64,000 nt of DNA from Chryseobacterium phocaeense (GTDB taxonomy: Bacteria > Bacteroidota > Bacteroidia > Flavobacteriales > Weeksellaceae). Position numbers and translations under genes: made by a program. This document shows, in pieces, positions 42,258 to 57,518 of the stretch (position 1 is the first letter of the stretch; the number at the start of each line of letters is the position of its first letter). Where the stretch lies: the NCBI RefSeq assembly GCF_900169075.1, contig NZ_LT827015.1, positions 2,434,158 to 2,498,157 on the forward strand. Direction: 5' to 3'. The notes under the pieces are model-generated. The model searched no databases. It had not been told where the DNA came from and saw nothing but the letters and a program-made list of their open reading frames with translations.

Positions 42258-42373
42258 GATACTTTATAATATAGATTTTACGAACTTAAAATTGATATGT
42301 ATTTCATTAATGTATTAACGAACTTACGGTAGTGTTTATTCTTTAAATGAAGGCGCCACTTTATATTATTGAA

Positions 42374-42407: not shown

Positions 42408-42421
42408 TAAATTTTATATGT

Positions 42422-43009: not shown

Positions 43010-43072
43010 AAGATAATGGGATTTAAAAGGTTAAAAGGCTGCCCCTTTTTCACAGAGACAGCCTAAAAAGAA

Positions 43073-43852
43073 TTATGAATTACGTCTGCCTCCGAATCCG
43101 GATCTACCGGATCCTGAAGATCTTCCACCACCATGAGAAGCCTGACCTCCCATTCTGGCTATTCTTGTACGTTCAGATTTACTCATTGAAGCAAAACCTC
43201 TTTTTGATGTTCCCCCTCCTGAATTAGAACCTCTGTTGCTACCTCCTGACCCGGAGTTAGAATTAGAGCCACGGCCGCTTCCTGAACCGGAGCTTGAACT
43301 ACGCCCTCTTCCTGAACTACTGTTTCCGCCCGATCTTGAATTGGAGTTTCTTGAGCTTCCTCCGCTATTTGATCCTGATCTTCCTGAGTTTGATCTTGAT
43401 CCTGACCCTGATCCTGAAGATCTTCCGCTTCCTCCTGACCTAGATCCGGAGCCAGAACGGGATCCTCCACGAGAGCTGCTTCCAGAACTTCCTCTTCCAC
43501 CAGAAGTAAATCTTCCCTGACTATCCCTGTTTTGACTTCCGCCTCTTGAACCTCTGCTTCCGCCTCTTGAACCTCTGCCCCTATTATCATCGTCATCATC
43601 ATCGTCATCGTCGTCATCATCATAGTCATCGTCGTCGTCATAGTCATCGTCATCATAATCTTCGTCATCATACCCTCCTTCCTCATCGAAATAGTCTTCA
43701 AAATCTGAGAAATCATCATCGTACTCCTCGTCCTCACTTCCGTCGTTATAACCATGCTCATAACCTAATTGGTACGCTTCCTCAAGCATTGATTGGTCAT
43801 CATCTGATGAATTTCTGCCTGAACTTCTGTTGTTTGAATTTCTAGTGTTCAT
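43073..43852 (-). CDS. disordered Asp/Ser/Gly-rich protein with KGG-like stress motif
   Basis: A 259-residue, strongly biased protein. Residues about 40-90 are an acidic block of Asp, Glu and Tyr with a run of twelve Asp. Residues about 90-210 are Ser-Gly-Arg-Asn repeats, including RDSQGRFTSGG. Residues about 217-240 carry RGFASMSKSERTRIARMGG followed by QASHGGG, which matches the KGG stress-protein motif (as in YciG) with Met for Lys. Nearly all of it should be intrinsically disordered. The overlapping long frames on both strands here are artefacts of the repeat. The start is the ATG at 43850-43852. Confidence 0.72.
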   Translation of the reverse strand: MNTRNSNNRSSGRNSSDDDQSMLEEAYQLGYEHGYNDGSEDEEYDDDFSDFEDYFDEEGGYDDEDYDDDDYDDDDDYDDDDDDDDDDDDNRGRGSRGGSRGSRGGSQNRDSQGRFTSGGRGSSGSSSRGGSRSGSGSRSGGSGRSSGSGSGSRSNSGRSGSNSGGSSRNSNSRSGGNSSSGRGRSSSSGSGSGRGSNSNSGSGGSNRGSNSGGGTSKRGFASMSKSERTRIARMGGQASHGGGRSSGSGRSGFGGRRNS

Positions 43853-43896
43853 AAATTTACTTTTTGAAATTAATATTTAGTGATGTACCGCAGTCC

Positions 43897-43910
43897 TTGA
43901 CTAGTATCAG
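43897..43910 (-). promoter_or_regulatory. weak Crp/Fnr-like palindrome upstream of KGG gene
   Basis: TTGACTAGTATCAG fits TGAC-N4-RTCA with one asymmetric end base. Its centre is 51 bp upstream of the ATG. The -7-like sequence at the matching distance (TTAATTTC) has two mismatches, so this is the weakest member of the site family. Confidence 0.3.
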
Positions 43911-44039
43911 ACTGCAGTCGGTTTATTTTTAATGTTTAGACAATACAATACCCGCACACCGTAGAAACAGTGTGAAATATGATTGAATAATACTTTTAGT
44001 TATTCTATTATTCTGTAATAAGTTAAATGATACGTGTCC

Positions 44040-44261
44040 CTATTTAGAGCTCACGCCAGCTGAATCCTTCATCTTAATAGTGGCAACACTATCATTTGGA
44101 TTTCTTGATGTAATACCTGTTGTGTCTGGCCGTGTAGAATTTGTATTCATTGAATCTATAGCAGATGTATCAGCAGTAATTGGTGGCGCTGTTTGTACTT
44201 CTTTTTTACAACTGATTGTCAAAAGCCCTAGAAGAAGAGCTAAAGAGATTATTGCTTTCAT
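44040..44261 (-). CDS. small lipoprotein, Crp/Fnr-box controlled
   Basis: A 73-residue lipoprotein: signal sequence MKAIISLALLLGLLTISC with the lipidated Cys at about 18, then KKE and a Thr/Ser/Asp-rich disordered tail. I begin at the ATG 44259-44261; the longer frame begins with TTG further upstream. It has no recognisable domain. The upstream region holds a perfect TAGCTTTG -7 element and a 16-bp palindrome placed like a class II activator site, so expression is likely activated by a Crp/Fnr protein. Confidence 0.7.
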   Translation of the reverse strand: MKAIISLALLLGLLTISCKKEVQTAPPITADTSAIDSMNTNSTRPDTTGITSRNPNDSVATIKMKDSAGVSSK

Positions 44262-44285
44262 ATAACATATTTTAATTTGGTATAT

Positions 44286-44330
44286 CAAAGCTACAAGCTC
44301 AGGAAGGCAAATCCTATGACAATGATCATA
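44286..44330 (-). promoter_or_regulatory. Crp/Fnr-type class II promoter of the small lipoprotein gene
   Basis: The box TATGACAATGATCATA (44315-44330) is a perfect TATGA-N6-TCATA palindrome. The -7 element TAGCTTTG (44293 to 44286 on the minus strand) matches TAnnTTTG exactly. Centre of box to last base of -7 is 36.5 bp, which is about -41 from the expected start site. No TTG lies at -33, as expected for an activator-dependent promoter. Confidence 0.65.
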
Positions 44331-44462
44331 ATTGATTCATAATTTTTATTAAATTTTACTCTTCACCTATTTATATGATAAGAAAGAGTAGAATCACTCT
44401 AATATTTTTTAGATAGTAATTATTACTTTCTTTAGAATTAATACGATTTCAAAATCTATATA

Positions 44463-44968
44463 TCACCAGGATCGAAACTCAACTAACCCATCTGTCAAAA
44501 TCTTCCATTGAATTTTTGAAATTCCCACCATCCCTCCAAGAGCAATAGCTAAATTCCTTGCTTTGTCTGCGATCTGAGCATCCATATTCGGAGTTTCGTT
44601 ACGTCCGTAAATACCTGCTTTTATAAAATCCTTCCCTCGTGATATGATAAAAGTAGAACTTGCATCTCCCGTATAAAAGTGCGCAGTGTATGCATTTACC
44701 AAAATATCTATTTTCCCAAATTCAGCAAATGTTTTTGAGACGGTTTCTTTACAAAATTTTACATCATTGATATCTCCGCCAAAACATATAGCATGCCTAC
44801 CTAGAGCTTCAATTTCCATTTTTGTTTTTTCTGCATCGTCGTCGTCTTTATAATAGACAAAGGAATATCAGCACCTTCTTTGGCAAATAATAAGGCAATT
44901 GCTTTACCTATTCCGCTGTCTGCTCCTGTAATGAGCACTGATTTATTTTCCAATTGTAACCTCTCCAT
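44463..44968 (-). pseudogene. short-chain dehydrogenase gene, frameshifted and rearranged
   Basis: The ATG at 44966-44968 begins a normal SDR start (VLITGADSGIGKAIALLFAK). After about 38 codons the frame breaks, and the continuation is in the next frame (VYYKDDDDAEKTKMEIEAL, then FGKIDILVNA). The usual catalytic region with Ser and Tyr-x-x-x-Lys is absent. Instead, after DILVNA the sequence becomes unrelated (FIISRGKDFIKAGIYG, TDGLVEFRSW). So this is both frameshifted and either deleted or fused to another gene's end. It follows the intact SDR gene 11 bp downstream. Confidence 0.65.
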
Positions 44969-44979
44969 ACTATTAAAAT

Positions 44980-45774
44980 TTATACATCCTGTGGTTCCTG
45001 CATTTTTCCCATACGATATGCTGCCATGCTATCGCTTGCCAGATTAGACATGGCTACCGTTAATTTATTTTTCAACCCCGAGATTATTTTATCCTCTCCA
45101 TTCATCAGGGCTTCATAGCCATCTTTAGCCACTTCTTCCGGAGTGCTGAAACTCTCTTTATCTTCCATAATCTTACTTCTGTTCATATGGGCTTTGTTGA
45201 AAAAATCCGTATCGGTTGGTCCTGGAAGAAGTGCCGTAACCGTAATTCCGGTATCTTTTAACTCTTCACGAATCGCCTCAGACCATGACAGGATAAAAGC
45301 TTTACTTCCATGATAAACTGATTGCCATGGACCGGGTGCTTTACTTGCGATTGAAGCCAGATTCAGTATTTTCCCTGATCCTTTGCCGATACGATCCTTT
45401 AGGAAAAGTTTGGTTAAAATCAGAACTGCATTTATATTGAGCCTGACAATATCCAATTCCCGATGTATGTCTGTATCTTCAAATTTTCCATAGAAGCCCT
45501 GTCCTGCGTCATTCACCAATATTTCCGGGCTAATATCGTTGAGTCTAAGTTCGGCATACATAGAAAAAACATCATCTTCTTTAAAGAGGTTTTTTGCCTG
45601 GGTTATCACCTTAACACCATATTTTTTAAATTCATTGGCTTTTTCAAGCAGTTGATCATGACTGCGCGATACAATAACCAGATGGTAGCCATTTTTTGCG
45701 AATAATTTCGCCAGTTCATATCCGATTCCGCTGGTTGCACCAGTGATCAGTACATATTGATTTTTGATTTCCAT
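44980..45774 (-). CDS. short-chain dehydrogenase/reductase
   Basis: A 264-residue classical SDR. The cofactor motif is TGATSGIG (residues about 11-18), VNDAGQ stands for the NNAG motif with Asp, and the catalytic residues lie in NLASIASKAPGPWQSVYHGSK (Ser, Tyr, Lys). The Arg after strand 2 (VIVSRSHDQL) suggests NADP(H). The substrate is not predictable. It begins five bases after the stop of the CinA-like gene and is probably co-transcribed with it and the zinc dehydrogenase. The next gene downstream is the broken SDR. Confidence 0.85.
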   Translation of the reverse strand: MEIKNQYVLITGATSGIGYELAKLFAKNGYHLVIVSRSHDQLLEKANEFKKYGVKVITQAKNLFKEDDVFSMYAELRLNDISPEILVNDAGQGFYGKFEDTDIHRELDIVRLNINAVLILTKLFLKDRIGKGSGKILNLASIASKAPGPWQSVYHGSKAFILSWSEAIREELKDTGITVTALLPGPTDTDFFNKAHMNRSKIMEDKESFSTPEEVAKDGYEALMNGEDKIISGLKNKLTVAMSNLASDSMAAYRMGKMQEPQDV

Positions 45775-45779
45775 ATCGT

Positions 45780-46280
45780 TTATTTTAAAATAATCATTTG
45801 ATTGAGTTCACATTTAAAGCATCCGAGAATAAATTCCGTGTAATACAGCTGGGCTGTTGAAGCCTTTGTTTTATGGTGCAGTTCCAGTTTCTTGGATAAA
45901 ATGATTTCATTTTTGTAGGCGAATGAAAAATGCGCGAAAATTTTTTGATCCGATTCTTTCACAGGAGTTGCATATCCGGTGACAGATATTCCCCAGTCTG
46001 TATTGAATAATGCACTAACATTCAACGCCATTTCATCGGCAACTTCCTTAGAAACACAATCACACTTTATCGCTTCCTGCTCATCAACTTTCAAAAGTTT
46101 CAATTTTTCCTCAAGAGTGTAGGCGGTTATGCCGCCTTTAAAAAATTCAGAGGCATCTTTCATCTGCGAAAGTGAAAACTGCAGGCAGCCAGCAGTAACA
46201 CTTTCTGCCACAGAAACTGATTCATGGGCAGATTTCAGTGCCCCGCCGATATAATCCAACAAAGACTGTTTAAATTCCAT
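45780..46280 (-). CDS. CinA C-terminal domain protein
   Basis: A 166-residue stand-alone CinA C-terminal domain, as in nicotinamide-nucleotide amidase PncC, which removes the amide of NMN in the pyridine nucleotide cycle. SVAESVTAGCLQFSLSQM, FFKGGITAYT and WGISVTGYATP correspond to the active-site blocks. The last 60 residues diverge from PncC, so the substrate may differ. The ATG at 46278-46280 is 56 bp after the zinc dehydrogenase stop. A frameshifted paralog lies at 41792-42257. Confidence 0.8.
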   Translation of the reverse strand: MEFKQSLLDYIGGALKSAHESVSVAESVTAGCLQFSLSQMKDASEFFKGGITAYTLEEKLKLLKVDEQEAIKCDCVSKEVADEMALNVSALFNTDWGISVTGYATPVKESDQKIFAHFSFAYKNEIILSKKLELHHKTKASTAQLYYTEFILGCFKCELNQMIILK

Positions 46281-46336
46281 GAGAATACATTTAATTAATT
46301 AACAATACGCCTCTCCTAATACCATAGAGCTTTTAT

Positions 46337-47503
46337 TTATCTCCAGGGATCAAGCACTACTTTTACACATCCATCCTGCTTTTTATCAAATATTTCATAT
46401 CCTTTTGCCACCTCATTAAGGGAAAGGCGGTGCGTTATGATATCATCAAGTTTTACCTGCCCGGTTTCCACATATTTCATTAATTTATCAATAATTGCAT
46501 GAACCGGAGATTGCCCCGCTTTAAGCGTAATGCCTTTATCAAAAAGCTGACCTACCCTAAAATTGTCATAATTCATGGGATAGACTCCTAATATGGAAAC
46601 AAAACCTCCGCGTCTTACGCCACTCATACACGCATCCAGCACTTTGATAGAACCTTTTTCAAAATTGACAACTGCCTTTGCTCTGTCTATCAGATTTCTG
46701 TCCGGTTCAAAGCCTACTGCATCTATGCATAAATCGGCACCTCTGCCATTGGTCATGCTTCTGATTTCGTCAACAGTCTGTTTGGCATCTTCCCAAAGAA
46801 TGGTTTCGCATCCTGTAAGATTTTTTATCTGATCCAATCTATATTGAAGGGTATCAATAACAATTACTTTTTTTGCATGATGAAGAATGGCACTTTTTAC
46901 CGCCATTGATCCCACCGGCCCTGCACCAAAAATAGCTACGGTTTCTCCGCCTTTAAGGTCCGCCCACATTACGCCGGTATACCCTGTAGGAAAAATATCG
47001 GTAAGAAAAAGCACTTGTTCATCGGTCAATGAATCAGAAACCTTTCTAGGTCCGAAATTAGCATAGGGAACTCTTACATATTGTGCCTGCCCGCCATTAT
47101 ACCCACCATACAGATCGGTATAACCAAACATGCCGCCACCTTTTTCAGTAACCAAACCCCCTTCGGGACCGTAATTTTCTATATTGGAGTTTTCACAGCC
47201 TGATGGTAAATCATGCTGGCAGAAATAACACCCTCCGCATGCAATCGGAAATGGTACCACAACTCTGTCGCCCGCTTGTAGGTGATTGATGTTTTTTCCT
47301 ACTTCCTCCACAATTCCCATAAACTCATGTCCCATTACCATAGGACGCGGCTGAGGAATTCCTCCCGAATACATGTGAAGGTCACTACCGCAGATTGCGG
47401 TGGAAGTTACACGAAGGATGATATCATTTTGATCTTCAATCTTTGGATCATCGACGGTATCGCAGGTAATGTTACCCGGCGAATGAAAAACTGCTGCTTT
47501 CAT
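46337..47503 (-). CDS. zinc-dependent alcohol dehydrogenase (formaldehyde-dehydrogenase-like)
   Basis: A 388-residue medium-chain zinc dehydrogenase. ICGSDLHMYSGG and GHEFMGIVEEVG supply the catalytic zinc ligands (Cys and His), and CGGCYFCQHDLPSGCEN holds the four cysteines of the structural zinc. GAGPVGSMAVKSA is the NAD-binding site. The long form with the extra loop after the structural zinc is that of glutathione-independent formaldehyde dehydrogenase-like proteins. I use the ATG at 47501-47503, which starts the conserved MKAAVFHSPG; an ATG at 47551 would add 16 unrelated residues. It heads a likely operon with the CinA-like and SDR genes. Confidence 0.87.
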   Translation of the reverse strand: MKAAVFHSPGNITCDTVDDPKIEDQNDIILRVTSTAICGSDLHMYSGGIPQPRPMVMGHEFMGIVEEVGKNINHLQAGDRVVVPFPIACGGCYFCQHDLPSGCENSNIENYGPEGGLVTEKGGGMFGYTDLYGGYNGGQAQYVRVPYANFGPRKVSDSLTDEQVLFLTDIFPTGYTGVMWADLKGGETVAIFGAGPVGSMAVKSAILHHAKKVIVIDTLQYRLDQIKNLTGCETILWEDAKQTVDEIRSMTNGRGADLCIDAVGFEPDRNLIDRAKAVVNFEKGSIKVLDACMSGVRRGGFVSILGVYPMNYDNFRVGQLFDKGITLKAGQSPVHAIIDKLMKYVETGQVKLDDIITHRLSLNEVAKGYEIFDKKQDGCVKVVLDPWR

Positions 47504-47675
47504 ATTGTTATATTTTATAGTTTGGTGTTTATACGTTATCAATGTGATCATCAGACTCTAAAAGCTCATGCATTGGACATTTCAAATTGTAATTTGATTA
47601 AAATGGCTGACGAGAGACCTGGCTAAAGTTTTTTATACTTCAGCAATGGTAGAGGATCTCCTCCTTCCTAAACAG

Positions 47676-47909
47676 CTACAGGTAGTGTATCGACAATAAA
47701 TACATGAGGCAAAGGGAGCTTAAAGTAATCCCGAGAATGCTTAGCACTCTTCCTGTTTTTAAATTGTCGAAATTGGTATAGTTTCCTTTATTTTTATCAT
47801 ATACTTTTTTATCTCTTCTGTAAAGAAAGAGAGCGATGCTTCCGGTTAGTATTCCCGGGATTCCATAACAGCAGCATAAGGCTACAGAAGAAATTCCGAG
47901 CACTAGCAC
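47676..47909 (-). CDS. CCC-motif small membrane protein, start unclear
   Basis: A 77-residue protein with two membrane helices. VALCCCYGIPGILTGSIALF holds the triple-cysteine motif of a conserved Bacteroidota family, and NLKTGRVLSILGITLSSLCL is the second helix. From the GTG at 47907-47909 the protein starts inside the family: the nine codons before it read NSKLPNATA, which matches the usual N terminus, but no ATG, GTG or TTG is available upstream in that frame. Either a rare start is used or the true start codon was lost. Confidence 0.65.
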   Translation of the reverse strand: MLVLGISSVALCCCYGIPGILTGSIALFLYRRDKKVYDKNKGNYTNFDNLKTGRVLSILGITLSSLCLMYLLSIHYL

Positions 47910-48105
47910 GGCTGTGGCATTGGGTAATTTGGAATTCCTTATGATGATAGATTTTGAAACCAGTAGATTATTCCAGTAATAAAATGCAGCCGGCAGTAAA
48001 GATTAAATACTGTCTTTATAAAACATTAATTTTCTGGCTTACAAATCAATAATGTAAACAATCAAATCCGTCAGCATCAGATTTTCAGAAACAATATACA
48101 GTCTT

Positions 48106-48157
48106 TCGAATAATATCCGATAACCCTTTCAAGGCAGATTACCGGATATTTATTCGA
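48106..48157 (-). terminator. terminator downstream of DUF4142 gene
   Basis: Arms 48106-48123 and 48139-48157 pair over about 17 bp with one bulge (around AATATCCGATAA and TTACCGGATATT), 3 bp beyond the stop of the DUF4142 gene on the minus strand. Confidence 0.65.
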
Positions 48158-48159
48158 CA

Positions 48160-48771
48160 TTATTTTACATCATCTTTTGCTTTTTTAGATTCCATTAAAT
48201 GATGATCTAAAGTGGGAAGAATTTTAGTGGCAAAATTTTTCAGAGAGGATTCGGAGCCGTCAGCAGCTTCTTTCTTAAAATCAGCTATTGTTTTTTCATG
48301 ATCCTTAACCATCATATCAGTATACATGCGATCAAAATCAGCTCCTTTTTTAGCTTTAAGATCATCATATTTTTTCTGTTGGTCTGCATCTAAGGCGGCA
48401 GGTAAAGTGTAAGCCGTTTTAGAAGCCCACTGCTTTAATTCTTCGTTGGCTTTGGTGTGATCCTTTACCATCATTTCACCCAGTTTTTTAACTGTTGGGT
48501 TGGTCGCATTTCGGGATGCTAATTCTCCCGCCATCACTTCCATCATTCCTCCTTTTGCTGCTGCATCAGCAAATTTTCGATCCTGATCATTTAATGATGT
48601 TGTTTCAGAGGACGTTTGGGAAGTTGAAAGAGAATCTCCAGGCATTGCACCCGAATCCACAGGAGCTGACATTTCGCTGTGATCAGCCGAATGATCAACA
48701 GTAGCGGTTTCTTTTTTGTTACATGCCGTTATTGCAGCAATGGTTACAAAGATTAGAATTGTCTTTTTCAT
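48160..48771 (-). CDS. DUF4142 lipoprotein
   Basis: A 203-residue exported protein. The lipobox is ITAC (Cys about 17), then a His/Ser/Thr-rich linker of about 45 residues. From LNDQDRKFADAAAKGGMMEV starts a four-helix DUF4142 domain with two repeats of the form MVKDHTKANEEL and MVKDHEKTIADF, the family's paired helices, related to ferritin-like folds. DUF4142 proteins are often stress-induced envelope proteins, consistent with the catalase gene 54 bp upstream on the same strand. The start is the ATG at 48769-48771. Confidence 0.82.
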   Translation of the reverse strand: MKKTILIFVTIAAITACNKKETATVDHSADHSEMSAPVDSGAMPGDSLSTSQTSSETTSLNDQDRKFADAAAKGGMMEVMAGELASRNATNPTVKKLGEMMVKDHTKANEELKQWASKTAYTLPAALDADQQKKYDDLKAKKGADFDRMYTDMMVKDHEKTIADFKKEAADGSESSLKNFATKILPTLDHHLMESKKAKDDVK

Positions 48772-48825
48772 AATATTTTAATTTGTTGGTGTTGATATGA
48801 ATGTCAAGTAGTTTCTACTCATTTT

Positions 48826-50970
48826 TTATACTAATCCGTTTCTTTCTTTTTCAAACTGCCAAACCCTGTGATTAGCTATCGCCTCAACAAATAAGTCATC
48901 AGAATCAGCATCCTTAGCAGAAATTACTCCAGGATCATCATGTTTGATCGATGCCACATCTGTAAGGTTTTTGATTACTTCAGTATCATACCCAAAGTAA
49001 ATGGCTTTACAGTGACGGAATGCCTCATTAATAAAATCAACCGTCATATTTTTATTTCCAGGCTTTACAAATCCTTCTGCAGATTTTGCACCGCCACAGA
49101 TATACAGGGCATCAAAGCAAACACTTGAAGTTGTAGATAATGAATGATCCGGAATGTACGTCTGGCCGTCCGAAGATTTTACCGGTGCTACGGAATCCGC
49201 AATATATTGTACAACTGCACCCAGCCCTTCTAATTTTTCTATTAAATGATCGGTAGAAGCAGCATCAAACCCATCAGTCATCATAAAGCCAATTACACGG
49301 CTCTCAATGGTATCTTTAACAGTATTGGCCATACTCAGCGCTTCTGAAAATTTTATGGAAGGTTCAGTTTCTGCACTTTGGAGACTTGCTGGATCGGCAT
49401 CTGCAGGAATACTTTGATTGGGCTGATCGAGAATTTTAACCTCAACACCTAATCTGGATGCTACTTCCTGAGCCAAATCTTTGTTTACAAAAGCTAACTG
49501 ACCCACCATTCGTTCTCTGATGGCAGGAAGCGTTACTTTTGAAAGCTCAAAAACCAATGCATTTTGCAGATGCGTTTTTTCAAAGGCAGACTGACTGTTG
49601 TAAAATAATTTTGCCTGAGAATAATGGTCTACAAAGCTTGAGCTTCTTGCCCTTACTTTATGTCCTTCTACCCGCTCCTCCTGGGAGACAAAACCACCTT
49701 CTTTCACCATGGCCTGAAAAGGGCACCCTCCACCCATTGAATTAGGCTCGTAACTTACTTTTCCTTTAACGATCTGCTGACGCATGTGTCCATCACGCTG
49801 ATTATTTTGAATGGTTGTAATGGACCTGTTGATCGGAATTTCATGAAAATTCGGAGAACCTAATCTGGTAAGCTGAGTATCGGTGTATGAGAAAAGTCTT
49901 CCCTGTAAAAGAGGATCATTGGTAAAATCTATGCCGGGAACAATATGACCGGGATGAAATGCTACCTGCTCTGTTTCCGCAAAGAAATTATCCGGATTTC
50001 GGTTTAATGTTAAAGTTCCTACAAGTTCCACAGGAACAAGCTCTTCCGGGATAATTTTTGTAGGATCAAGGAGATCAAAATCAAATTTGTGCTCGTCTTT
50101 TTCAGGAACTACCTGCACTCCGAAATCCCACTCAGGGAAAGCTCCGTTCTCAATGGCTTCCCAAAGGTCACGGCGATGAAAATCTGGATCATTTCCTGAA
50201 ATTTTCTGTGCTTCGGGCCACGCCACCGAATGGACTCCCAATTTGGGTTTAAAATGAAATTTCACAAAATGTACATCGCCCTGTTCATTGATAAATTTGA
50301 AGGAATGCACGCCAAAACCTTCCATCATACGGAAGCTTCTCGGGATCGCACGATCACTCATCAACCACATAATCATATGGGTACTCTCTGGCATTAATGA
50401 AATGAAATCCCAAAAAGTATTGTGAGCCGAAGCAGCTTGCGGAATCTCATTATCCGGCTCTGGTTTTACCGCATGGACCAGATCCGGAAATTTGATTGCA
50501 TCCTGAATAAAAAAGACAGGCATATTATTGGCAACCAAGTCATAAACGCCTTCTTCAGTATAAAATTTCACAGCAAATCCTCTTACATCTCGGGCAAGAT
50601 CTGTACTTCCTCTACTTCCGGCAACGGTAGAAAAACGCACAAATACAGGAGTCTCTTCATCGATATTGTTTAAAAATTTAGCTTTCGTATATTTTGCCAG
50701 ACTTTTATTTAATTTAAAAACACCGTGAGCCCCGGAACCTCTTGCATGAACTACTCTTTCCGGAATTCGTTCATGATCAAAATGAGTAATTTTTTCTCTG
50801 AGAATAAAATCTTCAAGAAGAGAAGGTCCTCTTTCTCCTGCTTTCAGAGAGTCCTGATTGTTATTGATCTTTAATCCCTGATTAGTGGTCAGTTTTTCAT
50901 TGCTGTTATCCGTTGTATGATCTTGAAGTTGATCACGCTTCGAGTTTGATCCCAAATTTTCATTTTCCAT
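48826..50970 (-). CDS. katE: large-subunit catalase (HPII type)
   Basis: A 714-residue monofunctional haem catalase that converts H2O2 to water and oxygen. The distal His is in RVVHARGSGAHG (His75), the distal Asn in DLVANNMPVFF (148-149), and the proximal Tyr in RLFSYTDTQLTRLG. The extra C-terminal 150 residues (VIGFMMTDGFDAASTDHLIE) are the flavodoxin/DJ-1-like domain of clade 2 large catalases such as E. coli HPII. No signal peptide, so cytosolic. A class II Crp/Fnr-type promoter about 285 bp upstream probably drives it, making it part of the local stress regulon. Confidence 0.93.
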   Translation of the reverse strand: MENENLGSNSKRDQLQDHTTDNSNEKLTTNQGLKINNNQDSLKAGERGPSLLEDFILREKITHFDHERIPERVVHARGSGAHGVFKLNKSLAKYTKAKFLNNIDEETPVFVRFSTVAGSRGSTDLARDVRGFAVKFYTEEGVYDLVANNMPVFFIQDAIKFPDLVHAVKPEPDNEIPQAASAHNTFWDFISLMPESTHMIMWLMSDRAIPRSFRMMEGFGVHSFKFINEQGDVHFVKFHFKPKLGVHSVAWPEAQKISGNDPDFHRRDLWEAIENGAFPEWDFGVQVVPEKDEHKFDFDLLDPTKIIPEELVPVELVGTLTLNRNPDNFFAETEQVAFHPGHIVPGIDFTNDPLLQGRLFSYTDTQLTRLGSPNFHEIPINRSITTIQNNQRDGHMRQQIVKGKVSYEPNSMGGGCPFQAMVKEGGFVSQEERVEGHKVRARSSSFVDHYSQAKLFYNSQSAFEKTHLQNALVFELSKVTLPAIRERMVGQLAFVNKDLAQEVASRLGVEVKILDQPNQSIPADADPASLQSAETEPSIKFSEALSMANTVKDTIESRVIGFMMTDGFDAASTDHLIEKLEGLGAVVQYIADSVAPVKSSDGQTYIPDHSLSTTSSVCFDALYICGGAKSAEGFVKPGNKNMTVDFINEAFRHCKAIYFGYDTEVIKNLTDVASIKHDDPGVISAKDADSDDLFVEAIANHRVWQFEKERNGLV

Positions 50971-51169
50971 ATTTCTTCTTATTGCGATTTGATGTATGTG
51001 ATGTTGACTTAGTATTTAATTTACAATATCAGCAAATGCGATACGGCAAATTGTTTTAGGATGATTATCCAACTCATTATTATATTATGAATAAAGTTTC
51101 TTTTGGAAAAAGGAGAATAATTAAACGAACTGTACACATTAAAAAATGGAGCGGAATATCATCTACTTT

Positions 51170-51235
51170 CTAAATTGCTTTATAAAATGGTAAGCCGCAC
51201 AGGTTAATCTGTGTGTATTTATAATTGGTGCTCAT
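51170..51235 (-). CDS. possible 21-codon leader ORF upstream of katE
   Basis: An ATG at 51233-51235 begins 21 codons starting MSTNYKYTQINLCGLPFYK and ending at TAG 51170-51172. It starts only about 20 nt after the start site predicted from the -7 element at 51261-51268, so it would be the first thing translated in a 285-nt leader before katE. Length alone gives little statistical support; position is the main argument. Confidence 0.25.
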   Translation of the reverse strand: MSTNYKYTQINLCGLPFYKAI

Positions 51236-51260
51236 ATAATTTTTATTTTATGGTGTATTT

Positions 51261-51305
51261 CAAAATTACAACTCCATAAAAATCTACCTTATGACTTAGG
51301 TCATA
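51261..51305 (-). promoter_or_regulatory. Crp/Fnr-type class II promoter upstream of katE
   Basis: The box TATGACTTAGGTCATA (51290-51305) is a perfect six-base-arm palindrome. The -7 element TAATTTTG (51268 to 51261, minus strand) matches TAnnTTTG. The distance from box centre to the end of the -7 is 36.5 bp, identical to the lipoprotein promoter at 44286-44330. The transcript would have a leader of about 285 nt before katE. Confidence 0.6.
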
Positions 51306-51482
51306 TTGCAATAATTTATCACAGCAATACCTAAAAAAAATATAAATGTTGAAGTATTTATTGCCACTTATCTATTCCAAGTATGAAGAATATGCTTTTT
51401 AAATTCTTTGGTCTGGTTAAATTTATTCCAATCATCAGATGGCATCGAATGTTAATATGATAAATAGGCATGATTGAAATGA

Positions 51483-52079
51483 TTAATAAAATATTTTTCC
51501 ACCAATATTTTTTACAATATTTTCACGTTCCATTTTTTTTAATACTCTTATCACAGTTTCTATTCTCAGTCCTGTTAGTGAGGCAATTTCAAGACGGGTA
51601 TAGGGAATTTGATAGGCGTATTGTTCTGTCACATTATGATATTGCTTCAAACAGTCCATTACACAGATTATTTTACTGAAGGTGTTTGTGGATGATAAAT
51701 TATTTAGCATCACATAACGGTAGTGCATTCTTTCAGCGGTATATTGATAAAGTTTAAATAATATGCTTTTATCACTGTGAATCAGATCAAAAAATCTAGC
51801 TATTCCAACTTTAATAACTGCTACATCATTCATTGCTACTGCATTGACTGGATAAGGCCTTTCGGAAAATATAAAAGTTTCTCCAAGACAGTGCCCGGCC
51901 GAAGGTAAACTATGGATAAATTCTTTTCCTTCCTGATGATAATTGTTGATTTTTACATTGCCATATTTTATCTGAAAATAAAATTTTGGTATTTCCGATT
52001 CTCTAAATATCATATCATTTTTGGTGAATTTCACTAATTGTCCTCCATAATGAAAGAGTAAATCTTCATCAACCAGCAT
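51483..52079 (-). CDS. Crp/Fnr family transcriptional regulator (1)
   Basis: A 198-residue regulator. The N-terminal cyclic-nucleotide-binding-like barrel (about 10-120) contains FYFQIKYGNVKINNYHQEGK and GETFIFSERPYPVNAVA. The C-terminal winged helix has YTRLEIASLTGLRIETVIRV as the recognition part. No N-terminal cysteine cluster is present, so it is unlikely to hold an Fe-S sensor like FNR. It is the closest relative, by eye, of the two plus-strand regulators that follow. Its own promoter region carries two palindromes, so autoregulation is likely. Confidence 0.88.
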   Translation of the reverse strand: MLVDEDLLFHYGGQLVKFTKNDMIFRESEIPKFYFQIKYGNVKINNYHQEGKEFIHSLPSAGHCLGETFIFSERPYPVNAVAMNDVAVIKVGIARFFDLIHSDKSILFKLYQYTAERMHYRYVMLNNLSSTNTFSKIICVMDCLKQYHNVTEQYAYQIPYTRLEIASLTGLRIETVIRVLKKMERENIVKNIGGKIFY

Positions 52080-52140
52080 ATTGAAAAAATTATTAGGGGG
52101 TATTAAACTTGTACTAATTAAATTGCAGGATTAAAAAAAA

Positions 52141-52154
52141 GTGACATATATCAC
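52141..52154. promoter_or_regulatory. Crp-like palindrome GTGA-N6-TCAC
   Basis: GTGACATATATCAC fits both the E. coli CRP-type GTGA-N6-TCAC and the local TGAC-N4-RTCA pattern. It lies 62 bp upstream of the regulator-1 ATG and about 25-30 bp downstream of the start site expected from 52181-52188, a position suited to repression. Confidence 0.55.
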
Positions 52155-52180
52155 TGATAAGTGTACAATTAACTAGCATT

Positions 52181-52226
52181 CAAAGGTAATGGTAAAGGAC
52201 ACTTCACATGTATGACCTAAATCATA
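52181..52226 (-). promoter_or_regulatory. Crp/Fnr-type class II promoter of regulator 1
   Basis: The box TATGACCTAAATCATA (52211-52226) has perfect TATGA/TCATA arms. The -7 element TACCTTTG (52188 to 52181, minus strand) matches TAnnTTTG. Centre-to-end distance is 37.5 bp, one base more than at the lipoprotein and katE promoters. Leader about 95 nt to the ATG of regulator 1. Confidence 0.6.
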
Positions 52227-52446
52227 CGTACGAATTATGAGTACAAAATGTCAATCGTCAATTGAACAAGTTTACCTATGTGTATTTAAAAATTCTATAA
52301 AGCAATATAATCAAGAGATTTTTGGTTGCTGGTTTTATATTATCTTTAGAAAACAATTGTGCTTTTTCTTGCTAAAAGATTTAGTATAATCAGGAATATT
52401 AATCTTTGATATTCTACTAACTTTTATTCAAAAACATAATAGTATT

Positions 52447-53043
52447 ATGATTATCGATCAAAATCTTTTGCAGTTATACGGTGCAGAAACATCACAGTTT
52501 AAAGCCCATGAAACACTGTTTCAGGAAGGTAATACTCCAAAACTTTATTATCAGATAATAGAGGGCAGAGTTAAATTAAATCATTACGATGAAGACGGGA
52601 AAGAGATTATTCAAAGTATTTTGTTTTCAGGACAGAGTGTTTGTGAGTTGCTCCTTTTTATCACCGAAAAATATCCTGTCAATGCGATAACATTAACTCC
52701 TTGTGAAATCATTACCATTCCTAAAGACAACTTCTTTAAATTACTTACTGATCATCCGAATGTATCTTTAGATATCAACAAGTTTATATCCGAACGATTG
52801 TACCAAAAATTTGTCATGATGCAGCATAATTTATCATTGAGACCAGAGGTGAGGCTTTTGGGAATTCTTGACTACTTTAAAAGCTACAGCAATAACAAAG
52901 AAAAATATTCTTTTGAGGTTTATTTAACCAGAAAACAGATGGCTGCCATCACAGGTTTACGAATTGAAACCGTGATTAGAACTATTAAGAAAATGGAAAG
53001 TGGTCATATATTAAAATTGATTAACAGTAAAATATTTTACTAA
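52447..53043 (+). CDS. Crp/Fnr family transcriptional regulator (2)
   Basis: A 198-residue paralog of regulator 1, transcribed divergently from it. The sensor barrel contains LYYQIIEGRVKLNHYDEDGK and SGQSVCELLLFITEKYPVNA, and the winged helix has LTRKQMAAITGLRIETVIRT. No Fe-S cysteine pattern. The upstream 220 bp holds AATCTTTG-like and TATCTTTA-like -7 candidates but no palindrome at the class II distance in this direction. The palindrome 52211-52226 is shared intergenic space and might act on both genes. Confidence 0.88.
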   Translation: MIIDQNLLQLYGAETSQFKAHETLFQEGNTPKLYYQIIEGRVKLNHYDEDGKEIIQSILFSGQSVCELLLFITEKYPVNAITLTPCEIITIPKDNFFKLLTDHPNVSLDINKFISERLYQKFVMMQHNLSLRPEVRLLGILDYFKSYSNNKEKYSFEVYLTRKQMAAITGLRIETVIRTIKKMESGHILKLINSKIFY

Positions 53044-53629
53044 AACCTACTCATGATAATTGGTATTGGAAAGAGGAATCTTTCGAAGAAATAATTATAT
53101 CTATATATAGCAGCTATATCCTAATCTGTTATCTATTTCCATGTTTTTGTTTTAAGCTACTGGAAATTAACATATAAATCCTAATACGATCTAAAATCAA
53201 ATAATTATGATTTAATTAACGTATTTATAATTTAAGGCGTAAAATAGGTATATAAGTGCGTCCATCAATATGTTTTACATTTACAATCAATTAACTTTAT
53301 GATTAAAAAAAAGATAAAACATACATAGTATGATTCAAAACATATTATTTAAATAGTGTTCGCATTATATTTGCTGCATACTAATTGCTGATGAATTATA
53401 TAATCTCCTAACAAATTATGGAGCTTTAGCAACTTTCATATGGAATATCGTCTAATAAATATTATTAAAAAGGCGCAATTCACTTCATGATTTTCGACCA
53501 ACCTAAGTTAGAATGTTGCTTTAAAAACATACTGTAACATGCAGCAAAATTACGATACCCGTATTACGCTGATGATCCTACATTAGGAATTCAAGTCCAT
53601 TCATATCACTAACCACAAAAATTAAAAGT
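53044..53629. other. AT-rich intergenic region before regulator 3
   Basis: About 585 bp without a convincing gene. TATATTTG at 53366-53373 is a perfect -7 match but would leave a leader of more than 250 nt. No TGAC-N4-RTCA palindrome was found here. Confidence 0.4.
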
Positions 53630-54229
53630 ATGCTTTTTAAAGAAGAACTTCTACGTTCCATCGGAGCCGTAGAACAACATTATAATCCGGGAGACTATAT
53701 ATTCCACGAAGGCGCAAATCCCAAATTTTATTTTCAGCTAGTTAACGGCGATGTTAAACTAAATAACTATAATAGTTCAGGTAAAGAATTTATTCAAAGT
53801 ATTCTTACTTCCAAAGATCCTGTTGGAGAGTATATGTTATATACAGAAAACATGTATCCTATGAATGCTGTAGCTATTACAAACTGTACTATTATTAAAT
53901 TATGCTCGAATAAATTACTTCATTATTTAGACCAAAACCCCAACCTTTATGTGGACTTATGCAAATCACTATCAAAGCATCTTTATCGTAAATTCGTCCT
54001 TATGCAAAAAATATCGTGCCACAGTGCGGTTGAAAGACTAAAAGAGGTTCTGGAGCTAATGAAACAGGAACATGGAAATACTGCTACACCATTCACGTTT
54101 GAGGTTCCAATGACAAGACAGCAATTAGGATCATTAACGGGTTTATGCGTTGAAACTACAATTAGAGTTATAAAAAAAATGGAACGAGAAAAGATAGTTA
54201 GAATTGTAAATAGAAAAATTCTATACTAA
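53630..54229 (+). CDS. Crp/Fnr family transcriptional regulator (3)
   Basis: A 199-residue third paralog. Barrel segments FYFQLVNGDVKLNNYNSSGK and GEYMLYTENMYPMNAVA align with regulators 1 and 2, and the winged helix is MTRQQLGSLTGLCVETTIRV. It is followed 58 bp downstream by the broken start of a thioredoxin-reductase-like gene. In relatives, such regulators are often paired with an intact flavoprotein of that kind, so regulator 3 may have lost its partner. Confidence 0.88.
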   Translation: MLFKEELLRSIGAVEQHYNPGDYIFHEGANPKFYFQLVNGDVKLNNYNSSGKEFIQSILTSKDPVGEYMLYTENMYPMNAVAITNCTIIKLCSNKLLHYLDQNPNLYVDLCKSLSKHLYRKFVLMQKISCHSAVERLKEVLELMKQEHGNTATPFTFEVPMTRQQLGSLTGLCVETTIRVIKKMEREKIVRIVNRKILY

Positions 54230-54287
54230 CTCTGGTATACCACTTATTTACATGTTTATTTCGATATAAAGGAAATAACTTATTATT

Positions 54288-54398
54288 ATGATTAAGAATA
54301 CAATATTTGATGTCATTATAATTGGAGGAAGCTATTCAGGGCTTTCTGCTGCATTAAGCCTGGCGCGGTTCCGAAAAGAAATACTTATTATTGATTAA
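54288..54398 (+). pseudogene. N-terminal fragment of a thioredoxin-reductase-like flavoprotein
   Basis: Thirty-six codons from the ATG at 54288 encode a perfect FAD-binding start (FDVIIIGGSYSGLSAALSLA, then RKEILIID) and then stop at TAA 54396-54398. The intact family is about 300 residues, and the next strand motif expected after IID is absent in all frames nearby. It is the truncated remainder of an NAD(P)/FAD-dependent oxidoreductase. Confidence 0.7.
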
Positions 54399-54869
54399 AA
54401 GATATTGCCGATGTGTAAGAACCATGATATCCAAAAAGAAGCCCATCACAAAAAAGGTTGATGCCCAGCATCAAAAACAGTTAACCGGTGAGATTGTCCT
54501 GGATTATAGTTTGAGTGCTAACGGAGACTACAAATTGATGGGTATGTTATTTGCTATTCACCATATTACTATAAGGCATTATAAATTCATTCTAAGAGCA
54601 GTATTGATAAAGAGCATTGTATCCATCATCATAACTGTACCACTAGCATGAAGATCTTCTAAATGATTAGAACATATAATACAATAAATTTAGGTAGTAA
54701 CTGCAAGGATTCATATTAATGGAGTTTGCTAAAGTAATAGCATAATCACAGAAATTGAGTTTTTAGGGCTATTTTGAACGGTATTGGGAAAAGGAATCGA
54801 TTTCAAATAAACGTTCATAAAAATATTCAGAAAATAAGAGTGGAAAAATGTAGTGTAAAACATATCGAA
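54399..54869. other. intergenic region with no accepted gene
   Basis: About 470 bp between the flavoprotein fragment and the glycolipid-binding protein gene. A frame from ATG 54424 to 54651 encodes 75 residues without recognisable motif, and I do not accept it. It probably marks a deletion scar. Confidence 0.35.
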
Positions 54870-55430
54870 ATGAGAAAAATCGTCTGGAAAGGCTTGCTTT
54901 ATAAATCCTGGGAAAATTGCAGGATCGAGAAGAAAAATGATGCCTTCTATGTGGAATCAACTATCATTGGTAACTATATGAACCGAGTTTATAATGTAAA
55001 TTATATTTTAAAAATTGACAAAAATTGGTGCATACAGGAATTTGAAATAAAAACAGAAATTGATGGCCAAGGAAATGTAGTTGTGGGAACAAAATCTGAG
55101 GGTCAATGGTCGATCAATGGAATGCTTCGAGCCGAGTTTAATGAATTTCTCTATATTGATATTTCGGTCACTCCCTTCACCAATACCCTGCCCATCAATA
55201 ATTTATTATTGAACATCGGTCAGTCGGCCTATATTGATGTAGTTTATATCAATATTCTCGAAAATGAAATAAAGCCAGCTAAGCAGCTTTATAGCAGAAA
55301 GAAGAAGGACGAATATCTGTACGACAATCTTGATACAGAATTTTCTTCGTCAATCACAGTCGATCAGAAGGGCATTGTAAAGAGCTATCCCGGTCTATTT
55401 GAGTTAGTTTTGGAAGGCAGGGAAAATTAG
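54870..55430 (+). CDS. putative glycolipid-binding family protein (DUF1089-like)
   Basis: A 186-residue cytosolic protein. MRKIVWKGLLYKSWENC and the pattern of strands around YILKIDKNWCIQEFEIKT, GQWSINGM and DISVTPFTNTLPINNL match the putative glycolipid-binding family (PF06475, PA1994-like), a closed beta-barrel related to LolA/LolB-like folds. I use the ATG at 54870, which is where the family begins; the frame is open back to a TTG at 54774. It is convergent with the SRPBCC gene, 21 bp apart. The ligand is unknown. Confidence 0.72.
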   Translation: MRKIVWKGLLYKSWENCRIEKKNDAFYVESTIIGNYMNRVYNVNYILKIDKNWCIQEFEIKTEIDGQGNVVVGTKSEGQWSINGMLRAEFNEFLYIDISVTPFTNTLPINNLLLNIGQSAYIDVVYINILENEIKPAKQLYSRKKKDEYLYDNLDTEFSSSITVDQKGIVKSYPGLFELVLEGREN

Positions 55431-55451
55431 AATAATACCTCTGCGCAGGGT

Positions 55452-55817
55452 TTATGTTTGCATTAACAGGTTAAGATCTTCAATCACTTTTGACCAATAT
55501 TCTCGGGTCACCTCACGTTGACTTTCATTTTTTAATTTATCAACGTGAATCGAAATTGTTGTCTTATCTTTATTTTTGGACGGAATAAATCTGATCTGTA
55601 AGTTTGCGTCTTCAGTGAAATCTTTGTGCCTCCACTTTGTCCGGATATGCGAATATTCCTTAAAAGTTGAAAAATTCTGGTCTACACCTTCAGACCAATA
55701 GCTTAATCCCCGGTCTGAAAAAAAGTCATTCCACAGTGTTTTCAGGTTCGCTGGCATAGTTTTTCTGATTCCGAACTGCCAGCCTGCATCTTTTGTTAAT
55801 CCAGTGCTATTTGCCAT
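55452..55817 (-). CDS. SRPBCC-domain protein (AHSA1-like)
   Basis: A 121-residue single-domain protein. GWQFGIRKTMPANLKTLWND at the start and the C-terminal helix EYWSKVIEDLNLLMQT are typical of START/AHSA1-like ligand-binding folds, and the middle strands (FKEYSHIRTKWRHKD, LQIRFIPSK) fit. The function is unknown; proteins of this type bind hydrophobic ligands or assist stress responses. It is 37 bp downstream of the cyclase-family gene and probably in its operon. Confidence 0.7.
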   Translation of the reverse strand: MANSTGLTKDAGWQFGIRKTMPANLKTLWNDFFSDRGLSYWSEGVDQNFSTFKEYSHIRTKWRHKDFTEDANLQIRFIPSKNKDKTTISIHVDKLKNESQREVTREYWSKVIEDLNLLMQT

Positions 55818-55854
55818 GTTTATCTCCTTTTAAAATGAGTCCAATTGAATATAA

Positions 55855-56748
55855 TTATTTCTTTTCAACCGAAGCAAAAGCCCTGACCGGAAAAGTCCCA
55901 ACATCTTTAAATTTTGGTGGAGCGGCTGTGAACGTAAAATTCTCAGCCGGTAATTTATTTAAATTGCAGAGATGTTCAACTATTAAAATCCCAGCACCCA
56001 ACAGCACCGTATGAACAGGTCTTGTTCTGCCAGCCGTGTCATCTATATTATGGGAGTCAATACCTACAAGTTTGACGTTACAATCCCTAAGATATATTGC
56101 CGCCTGCTCGGTAAGATAAGGATGATCCTGGTAATATAGCTCCGTATTCCAATGTCTATCCCAACCGGTCTGTATTAATACCGCTTTATTTCTGATTTCT
56201 CTATTCTTAAGATGATCGTCCGTAATTGTCAGGGTTTCTGTAAACGGTATATGGATCATTACTGCTTCAAGCTGCGCAAAATTCTTTAATGCCGTTTGGG
56301 CTGTGTCCTTACCATCAGCAAATCTATGAAAGGGGCAATCAATATAAGTTCCGGTGTTGGTGACCATCTCAATTTTTCCAATCTGAAAAGATGTATCCCC
56401 GTCATAGTTTTGTTTTGACTGCTCCCTGGAGAGATAGTCGCAAATATGTGGTGCCTGCAGCCCCTTGTAAGTTATCAGACCATCTTCTATTGTATGACTC
56501 AAATCTATTAACAATTCTTCTGCCACACTTTCATCAATTGGTTTGCGTTTATGAGGCTCAACAAGGATTTTCTTGTTAAGGATATTAACTTGCCCTACCA
56601 TTAGCAGCCGCATATCTTTAACAATGTAGTCGGCCAGGACTCTGTCGCTGATATCGTCTCCGAATATATCCAGCCTAAAATCTTCACCTTTGATACTGCC
56701 ACCATTCGTAAAGAATATCTTGAAGTCAAATTTTACTCTTTTTTCCAT
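55855..56748 (-). CDS. cyclase family protein (kynurenine-formamidase-like) with N-terminal extension
   Basis: A 297-residue protein. The C-terminal 215 residues are a cyclase/formamidase domain: IDLSHTIEDGLITYKG, then NTGTYIDCPFHRFADG, a variant of the metal-binding HxGTHxDxPxH (the first His positions are Asn and Tyr here), then GIDSHNIDD and a late HTVLL. The first 80 residues (IFFTNGGSIKGEDFRLDI, ADYIVKDMRLLMVGQVNILN) are an extra conserved domain of some cyclase relatives. The start is the ATG at 56746-56748. Loss of two metal ligands questions amidohydrolase activity. It is preceded by a Crp/Fnr-type promoter lying within the end of the upstream gene. Confidence 0.75.
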   Translation of the reverse strand: MEKRVKFDFKIFFTNGGSIKGEDFRLDIFGDDISDRVLADYIVKDMRLLMVGQVNILNKKILVEPHKRKPIDESVAEELLIDLSHTIEDGLITYKGLQAPHICDYLSREQSKQNYDGDTSFQIGKIEMVTNTGTYIDCPFHRFADGKDTAQTALKNFAQLEAVMIHIPFTETLTITDDHLKNREIRNKAVLIQTGWDRHWNTELYYQDHPYLTEQAAIYLRDCNVKLVGIDSHNIDDTAGRTRPVHTVLLGAGILIVEHLCNLNKLPAENFTFTAAPPKFKDVGTFPVRAFASVEKK

Positions 56749-56771
56749 AGGATATTTCAATTTTACTATGA

Positions 56772-56815
56772 CAAAAGTGTGAAAATCTAAATATTGTTTA
56801 CTTGACTTAGATCAA
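56772..56815 (-). promoter_or_regulatory. Crp/Fnr-type class II promoter of the cyclase-family gene
   Basis: The box TTGACTTAGATCAA (56802-56815) is close to the classical FNR box TTGAT-N4-ATCAA. The -7 candidate CACTTTTG (56779 to 56772, minus strand) differs from TAnnTTTG at one base. Centre-to-end distance is 36.5 bp, as at the lipoprotein and katE promoters. The box lies inside the last codons of regulator 4, and the leader to the ATG would be about 20 nt. Confidence 0.55.
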
Positions 56816-57518
56816 TTTGATTGATTTTTTTACTCCTGATCCTACTAAGTGTTTCAGGGCTGATCCCAAGGTAAGAAGCGATATGGAAAAGCGGAATCTG
56901 TGTATCTGCATTCGGGAACTGTTTTAGAAAATAGTGATAGCGTTCATTGGCATCCAGCAGCAGAAACGAACTTTCCCTACGGCATTTTTTGATATATTCT
57001 TTGGCCAGAATATTATTCAATAAAATATTCCATTTGGTATCCTCCCGGATCAGTTTGTCCATAAGAGCCTTTGGTATACTTATCAAATCACATTGTTCAA
57101 TACACTGGAAACATAATTTGGTTTTCTCCTGAGTAAGAAAACTTGTAAACGCAGTAAAAAATTCATTTTCAAAAAAGAATTCAGTATTGATTTCTTTATA
57201 ATCCTTTTGATAGAAACTTCTTATGATCCCTTTTTGGAGGAAAAAGAGTTTGGCCGCAACGGATAATGGGTTTATCACATGGCTTCCCATGTCTGCGTTG
57301 AAAATGCTAACATGGTCCTCCAAAAGCAGGACTTCCTCATCATTCAGTGGAAAAAGACACTGAATGCTATTGATCAATTGGATTAACGGGTTATTTTCCA
57401 AGCCTGATAGTTTAAAATTTCCGATTACATATGAGTTTGTGCAACGAACGATCCGATAATTAAAAGTAATAAATATTAAGCATTTGTTGAATGTTAATAA
57501 TAAAAATAATATATTCAT
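56787..57518 (-). CDS. Crp/Fnr family transcriptional regulator (4)
   Basis: A regulator of the other Bacteroidota Crp/Fnr subfamily, resembling that at 61457. The barrel region contains AKLFFLQKGIIRSFYQKDYK and TEFFFENEFFTAFTSFLT. The HTH is PLFHIASYLGISPETLSRIR, with SRIR typical of this subfamily. The frame starts at the ATG 57518, but the family would be expected to begin near LENNPLIQLINS about 40 residues in, where only TTG is available, so the true start is uncertain. It precedes the cyclase-family gene by 38 bp and may be its regulator. Confidence 0.82.
   Translation of the reverse strand: MNILFLLLTFNKCLIFITFNYRIVRCTNSYVIGNFKLSGLENNPLIQLINSIQCLFPLNDEEVLLLEDHVSIFNADMGSHVINPLSVAAKLFFLQKGIIRSFYQKDYKEINTEFFFENEFFTAFTSFLTQEKTKLCFQCIEQCDLISIPKALMDKLIREDTKWNILLNNILAKEYIKKCRRESSFLLLDANERYHYFLKQFPNADTQIPLFHIASYLGISPETLSRIRSKKINQIDLSQVNNI

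Follow-up and report, generated by a model that had tools for sequence, protein, structure and literature searches.

A TATGAY-N4-RTCATA palindrome as the probable operator of an expanded Crp/Fnr subfamily and a stress-type regulon in Chryseobacterium

In Escherichia coli, CRP and FNR activate class II promoters from an operator with TGA...TCA half-sites centered near -41.5, where contact with a -35 element is not needed, and FNR activates FnrS, a stand-alone small RNA (sRNA) with its own terminator. The general stress regulons governed by RpoS, SigB and EcfG have a gene content that includes katE, the KGG protein and DUF892/YciF. In Bacteroides, levels of the RNA SnoA are unchanged by deletion of the Crp/Fnr regulator gene hcpR (PMC13370916, available part). 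Here we analyzed a window of 64,000 nt from Chryseobacterium phocaeense (contig NZ_LT827015.1, positions 2,434,158 to 2,498,157), in which the original prediction had placed a local Crp/Fnr regulon marked by recurring palindromes at a fixed distance from Bacteroidota -7 elements. Our analysis suggests, with a probability of roughly 0.8, that an expanded Crp/Fnr subfamily, that of Crp/Fnr 1-3 of the window with seven members in this genome, has TATGAY-YNNR-RTCATA as its operator, which would serve class II activation of stress genes, lipoproteins and sRNAs.

All six palindromes and all four -7 octamers reported earlier were present at their positions, and a hand count from the box center to the last base of the octamer returned 36.5 (44315), 36.5 (51290), 37.5 (52211) and 36.5 bp (56802), the first three values being identical when computed. 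A position weight matrix (PWM) built from 144 sites of other genomes picked out four sites with a score of 13 or more, all of them in the 44-54 kb part of the window: 52226- (31.6), 51305- (30.8), 44330- (26.6) and 53329+ (26.3). The reversed window yielded one match (14.9), and none of 30 block shuffles yielded a match of at least 19. Three of the four paired operators first proposed (44315, 51290 and 52211) are thus supported, and the fourth (56802), which lies in coding sequence, is doubtful; the statement that the window held no further match was nearly right, having overlooked only 53329+ upstream of Crp/Fnr 3. The features are as follows, with the boxes TATGATCATTGTCATA, TATGACCTAAGTCATA, TATGATTTAGGTCATA and TTGATCTAAGTCAA given in the direction of transcription:

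44315..44330, minus strand: predicted class II operator of the lipoprotein gene, TATGATCATTGTCATA (PWM 26.6, 0 mismatches to the strict pattern)
44286..44293, minus strand: lipoprotein -7 element TAGCTTTG, last base 36.5 bp from the box center
44040..44261, minus strand: small Thr/Ser/Asp-rich lipoprotein, 73 aa; such lipoproteins are a main class of protein-coding targets across the genus
51290..51305, minus strand: predicted class II operator of katE, TATGACCTAAGTCATA (PWM 30.8), with sites also upstream of katE orthologues
51261..51268, minus strand: katE -7 element TAATTTTG, 290 nt 5' of the start codon
48826..50970, minus strand: katE, long catalase, 714 aa
52211..52226, minus strand: predicted class II operator of Crp/Fnr 1, TATGATTTAGGTCATA (PWM 31.6, spacing 37.5)
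52181..52188, minus strand: Crp/Fnr 1 -7 element TACCTTTG
51483..52079, minus strand: Crp/Fnr 1, type member of the candidate regulator family
52447..53043, plus strand: Crp/Fnr 2, paralogue with 36% identity to Crp/Fnr 1
53329..53344, plus strand: near-perfect putative operator TATGATTCAAAACATA upstream of Crp/Fnr 3 (PWM 26.3, 1 mismatch)
53366..53373, plus strand: -7 element TATATTTG at 36.5, ~256 nt 5' of the Crp/Fnr 3 start
53630..54229, plus strand: Crp/Fnr 3, paralogue
43073..43852, minus strand: KGG-type stress protein gene, whose orthologues elsewhere have their own class II site
43886..43919, minus strand: RNA hairpin in the 5' untranslated region (UTR) of the KGG gene, overlapping the weak palindrome at 43897
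56802..56815, minus strand: doubtful operator of the cyclase gene, TTGATCTAAGTCAA, within the 3' end of the Crp/Fnr 4 coding sequence, at the I-D-L-S-Q codons

The product of 43073..43852, which has no Pfam or NCBIfam match, is presumably a KGG protein, and its gene is probably co-transcribed with the lipoprotein gene. The box upstream of Crp/Fnr 1 is retained in 11/11 sequences with 57-100% protein identity (L108-L118); the -7 element ends in A in L114, L116 and L117, and the box starts with A in L116.

Beyond the window, a directional TGAC-N4-RTCA pattern gave 12 matches in the genome and three in the control but overlooked TGAT-N4-GTCA sites, so a symmetric pattern was used. TGAY-N4-RTCA followed by TANNTTTG 8-38 bp on matched 42 times, compared with seven for the reversed pattern, with spacings of 36.5 in ten cases, 37.5 in five and 35.5 in two among 31 possible distances. 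In the strict form with N21 there were seven exact matches, five with one mismatch, three with two and 34 with three; because the reversed control also reached 34 at up to three mismatches, the weak matches are uninformative. Across the genus, TATGAYNNNNRTCATAN{20,22}TANNTTTG, that is, TATGAY-N4-RTCATA, 20-22 bp and TAnnTTTG, gave 427 matches in 126 of 148 Chryseobacterium genomes, and the reversed control gave 0. The sites, including those of the sRNAs described below, are therefore genome-wide and genus-wide and not local as first proposed, and box and -7 are paired more often than by chance. The TGA-N6-TCA core is short and frequent, and coding sequence can mimic a box, as at the cyclase site and at C4:3206843-, where the box overlaps the last codons of a 109-aa open reading frame (ORF). 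Even so, that the sites are chance palindromes in AT-rich DNA is scarcely credible in view of the genus-wide count, the fixed spacing and the conservation of box, -7 element and transcript amid unrelated flanks in the sRNA family R1. Order-wide, 89 of 296 genomes carried the pattern, including 14 of 20 from the family's other genera.

Spacing was also tallied, from 15.5 to 64.5 bp, in two sets of loci picked without reference to the -7 element, some genomes being in both. The 30 loci retrieved with Crp protein alone held 76 distinct boxes on the two strands, with TAnnTTTG at 36.5 (21), 37.5 (12) and 56.5 (1) and at no other distance; among 66 boxes in 30 katE-anchored loci, it stood at 36.5 (16), 37.5 (11), 33.5 (1) and 40.5 (1). 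The N4 of the box is itself biased, with Y at the first position and R at the last in 126/144 sites each. In the start-site map of Flavobacterium psychrophilum, the TAnnTTTG box lies at -12 to -5 (PMC9723704, available part). Because 36.5 or 37.5 bp separate the box center from the last base of the -7 element, which is at -5 in that species, the center would fall at about -41.5 or -42.5, the class II position, if the map can be transferred from F. psychrophilum to this genus.

The same box could be read as a repressor operator over the -33 region, with Crp/Fnr 1-3 silencing promoters until stress removes them. It is positioned to block polymerase and is present in several of the regulators' own promoters. 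Fixed operator spacing is needed by CRP/FNR activators and generally not by repressors, and since the distance to the -7 element is held at 36.5-37.5, we regard repression as quite unlikely. That only 1/152 sites has a TTG 17 or 18 bp before the -7 element also speaks against it, though box-less controls are low too.

Several observations link the sites to the family of Crp/Fnr 1-3 in the window. All three proteins score above Pfam cut-offs for PF00027 and PF13545 (cNMP-binding domain and Crp-type HTH), and Crp/Fnr 1 is 98% identical to a protein of Chryseobacterium sp. YIM B08800 in a protein search. The original prediction had counted four clustered Crp/Fnr proteins; the first three form one family, and Crp/Fnr 4 falls outside it: its only Pfam match, to PF00027, is below the cut-off, and BLAST at E 1e-3 does not pair it with any of Crp/Fnr 1-3. 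Mean site number rose with family gene count, from 0.14 in genomes with 0 genes (n = 7) to 0.33 with 1 (n = 6), 1.23 with 2 (n = 13), 2.24 with 3 (n = 34), 2.52 with 4 (n = 27), 3.78 with 5-7 (n = 40) and 5.38 with at least 8 (n = 21). The two counts were correlated (Spearman's ρ = 0.645, compared with 0.115 for other Crp-like candidates), and sites were absent from 6/7 genomes without the family and from 16/141 with it. Physical linkage points the same way: a class II site lay within 1.5 kb in 28/30 Crp/Fnr-1-type loci compared to 0/30 in the reversed control (relaxed criteria; five loci near-identical), and 19/30 loci fetched by site held a Crp/Fnr-1-3-type gene, in one of them (L092) only partial. 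In the genome of C. phocaeense, a further Crp/Fnr paralogue (G000:C4:1618779-1619372) faces an sRNA at 1619542 across one shared class II palindrome, with a good -7 element only on the RNA side; another paralogue is located at C4:1579168.

The recognition helix is compatible with the box. In an alignment of 101 rows (partial and interrupted matches removed beforehand; our Crp/Fnr 1 possibly twice), placed against CRP by what we take to be the corresponding motif, the positions aligned to CRP E181 and R185 are invariant (E174 and R178 in Crp/Fnr 1 numbering), and that aligned to R180 is V/I/T. According to the Crp/Fnr half-site rule relating recognition-helix residues to the base before TGA (PMC1274295, available part), this combination fits a TGA half-site preceded by T and not G. 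The CRP phosphate-site arginine (R82) is absent, the aligned column (placed by eye) being V/M/I/T in 96% and the next Asn in 94%. Crp/Fnr 1-3 also have no N-terminal cysteine cluster of the FNR Fe-S type, and NCBIfam FNR models scored far under cut-off.

The missing cysteine cluster bears on an alternative in which the sites belong to an O2- or NO-sensing regulator of FNR/HcpR type and an anaerobic or nitrosative regulon, with Crp/Fnr 1-3 as bystanders. The ground for it lies outside the family: 30 loci of the order's other families show this architecture upstream of genes that include ones we take to resemble ccoS, hemN and a U32 peptidase, the first two being typical FNR targets, and this set is probably an FNR-type regulon. 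At E 1e-10, 24/30 of these loci have no Crp/Fnr-1-4-type gene, and the site in L140 precedes an FNR-like gene with N-terminal cysteines. Within Chryseobacterium, by contrast, sites often adjoin Crp/Fnr-1-type genes, site number tracks that family far more than other Crp-like candidates, and the recognized targets are stress and sRNA genes, with no respiratory set seen by eye besides one succinate-dehydrogenase-like target (L191). The HcpR2 sites of Bacteroides, moreover, read GTAACnnnnGTTAC (PMC1274295, available part). For this genus we therefore consider an FNR/HcpR-type regulator unlikely. FNR-type regulators in the other Flavobacteriales (L147-L167) seem to share the box-to--7 geometry. 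A Crp/Fnr-2-like gene lies within 1.5 kb in 5/30 of the other-family loci (L159, L161, L164, L166 and L167; E 8e-34 to 3e-50), and a sixth, L152, has a weak match only.

To describe the targets of the putative Crp/Fnr operator, we surveyed 152 distinct sites (eight from this genome and 144 from others), a sample among the matches listed of the 427 that leaves out sites near contig ends and four listed sites in loci of Crp-family genes (G041:C28:19221, G064:C1:765922, and G125:C1:683566 and 684366). Downstream were 40 sRNA-like units, 37 lipoproteins, 12 short ORFs, 13 other close ORFs, 43 more distant ORFs and, in seven cases, none of these. The lipoprotein class was set by a regular expression, so that two of the 37 (L178 and L224) look spurious, and it is undercounted, as at least L047, L209, L214, L231 and L212 belong there and were classed otherwise. 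By eye, the ORF targets include KGG genes (11), an unknown family of 100 aa (7), seven Crp/Fnr genes, of which two are >300 nt from the site, katE (2) and DUF4142-, CCC-membrane-, formaldehyde-dehydrogenase- and CinA-like genes, several of these names resting on similarity to annotated genes of the window. A same-strand site was found within 1.5 kb upstream of katE orthologues in 19/30 loci and in none of the reversed controls (relaxed criteria). The gene content, with katE, KGG, DUF4142-, CCC-, CinA- and ADH-like genes, suggests a stress role for the regulon. At six sites (L086:430, L087, L089, L090, L100 and L104), the lipoprotein promoter, leader and start codon seem kept, and the frame now reads as a short ORF of unrelated sequence, as though the lipoprotein had degenerated.

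Small RNAs form the other large class. In this genome, five units run from a class II site to a terminator within ~92 nt of the -7 element:

C4:1619542, plus strand: sRNA-like unit
C4:3206843, minus strand: sRNA-like unit, one mismatch
C4:3207503, minus strand: sRNA-like unit
C4:3207488, plus strand: sRNA-like unit
C4:3207802, minus strand: sRNA-like unit, one mismatch

A single palindrome (L050:1501-1516; G000:C4:3207488-3207503) serves the two divergent sRNAs 3207503- and 3207488+, an arrangement seen again in L101. Several unrelated sRNA families carry sites within the genus. In one of them, R1, the box, -7 element, RNA body and terminator are conserved in six genomes amid unrelated flanks. 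A covariance model of the RNA only, without promoter sequence, trained on seven sequences chosen for carrying the site, gave 39 matches in 38 of 148 genomes at E<=0.001. Thirty loci were fetched, leaving nine further weak matches out of the site counts: 23 of the 24 with at least 62 bits have a class II site just upstream, as do 16/17 strong matches outside the training set, and the six weak loci (<=52 bits) have no core. For the 24th strong match (L326, 86 bits), the locus sequence did not contain the core string. R1 thus appears to be a conserved stand-alone unit with its own promoter and terminator. At gathering thresholds, Rfam found only tRNAs in the ten loci scanned. The k-mer TTTTCATC occurs in 5/21 sRNA clusters (shuffle mean 0.16, largest 3), although a rule of thumb set the limits of the bodies, cluster membership was assigned partly by hand and the k-mers were picked after looking; complementarity of sRNA seeds to start codons is a lead, not a result.

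Separately, a 22-nt element, TTTTTTCATCATTTGTGTTTTT, occurs exactly in 148/148 Chryseobacterium genomes, in two to eight copies each (reversed control 0), including the seven genomes without the Crp/Fnr-1 family. The copies in this genome comprise G000:C4:3207689-3207710 and 14 further ones at up to three mismatches, and others are found in L288-L295 and L340-L369. A terminator is usually 3' of the element in the copies inspected, and 10/35 examined have a class II site (relaxed criteria); the element resembles a multi-copy sRNA core.

Three of the palindromes first read as operators fared less well. The one at 56802 falls on the final codons of Crp/Fnr 4, and the conserved peptide I-D-L/V-S-Q encoded there accounts for it; the -7 element of the cyclase gene starts with CA. 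Because the PWM drew on TATGAY sites alone for its training, it is biased against such a TTGAY-type box, which we judged separately: the box and its 36.5 spacing (by eye) to CANTTTTG are kept in 6/6 genomes with the full-length gene, our own included, the seventh of the 7/60 genomes matched having a partial match with a stop. We consider 56802 doubtful as an operator, but it may have a double role in coding and regulation. The 52141 palindrome was rejected as a second operator, as there is no PWM site there; its 12-base core is intact in 4/5 of the closest sequences (own included) and in 0/6 more diverged ones. Also rejected was 43897, whose position is explained by the RNA hairpin in the KGG 5' UTR. 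This hairpin shows both-sided changes at 5/9 pairs among 11 sequences, a level reached by 1/500 shuffles, with the loop ACUAGU in 9/11 and z from -4.96 to -0.85 in six members folded singly; an Rfam scan of positions 41500-58000 of the window gave no match.

Taken together, the spacing, the copy-number correlation, the physical linkage and the sites before katE, KGG and lipoprotein genes elsewhere bear out the idea of a class II Crp/Fnr operator with a stress-type regulon. From these patterns we infer that Crp/Fnr proteins bind the boxes and activate in response to a signal, each paralogue of the family being a candidate for binding. A number of points weigh against this reading. An operator centered where class II activators bind could, in theory, be used for repression as well. 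The copy-number correlation is uncorrected for shared ancestry, and other Crp-like candidates, family-adjusted, still correlate weakly (0.195, P = 0.017). The missing -33 TTG is weak evidence, given that box-less controls are low in TTG too and that, over part of the range, the letters required in the box leave no room for one. The order-wide scan had three control matches; 11/30 katE loci have no site within 1.5 kb upstream, and in only 10/30 does a site lie 700 bp or less upstream. Enrichment of the sRNA-like class is no more than about twofold (37/144 compared to 17/133 box-less intergenic TAnnTTTG sites, P = 0.009), so that family R1 is the stronger evidence for sRNAs.

In the mechanism we propose, a stress signal would turn Crp/Fnr dimers into a DNA-binding form, and a dimer at -41.5/-42.5 would replace the missing -33 contact and recruit housekeeping RNA polymerase to TAnnTTTG promoters. 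The regulators would raise their own level and that of stress-type genes (katE, the KGG protein and others), and would activate many small lipoproteins and a set of sRNAs of very roughly 55-110 nt, which could pair with the start regions of mRNAs. Bacteroidota mRNAs have no Shine-Dalgarno sequences (PMC6847099, available part), and because UUUUCAUC-type seeds are complementary to AUG-AAA, such sRNAs might mask start codons. A general stress response that needs no alternative sigma factor and is run by amplified Crp/Fnr paralogues, with sRNA seeds of this type masking AUG-AAA, is a tentative extension that we hold possible but would not bet on.

If correct, the main proposal gives a large and little-studied genus a master regulator family for stress, with operator and targets identified, and ties one Crp/Fnr family to several sRNA families in Bacteroidota. 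As the pattern is strict, the regulon can be counted in any Flavobacteriales genome, and the question of a general stress response becomes directly testable. We found no description of the regulon in the open-licence literature, which is weak evidence of absence because 'Crp Fnr' may not match 'Crp/Fnr' in print.

Compared with known systems, the predicted operator resembles that of E. coli CRP/FNR class II promoters in its center position and TGA...TCA half-sites, and differs in having the Bacteroidota -7 TAnnTTTG in place of the -10 and a TATGAY half-site; unlike CRP and FNR, Crp/Fnr 1-3 have neither the phosphate-site arginine nor the cysteine cluster. As with FnrS, a Crp/Fnr protein is predicted to drive a stand-alone sRNA with a terminator, yet here several unrelated sRNA families of one genus would be driven in this way and one palindrome serves two divergent sRNAs. 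Unlike the host of FnrS, Chryseobacterium belongs to a phylum without Shine-Dalgarno sequences (PMC6847099, available part). The pairing of a Crp/Fnr regulator with an RNA in a Bacteroidota stress response recalls HcpR and SnoA of Bacteroides (PMC13370916, available part). In contrast to the HcpR2 regulon, where GTAACnnnnGTTAC precedes hcp (PMC1274295, available part), the Chryseobacterium operator is TATGAYNNNNRTCATA, and hcp was not recognized by eye among the targets in the site survey. Finally, the gene content is similar to that of the RpoS, SigB and EcfG regulons, but control would be exerted by a DNA-binding activator acting with an ordinary -7 element and not by an alternative sigma factor.

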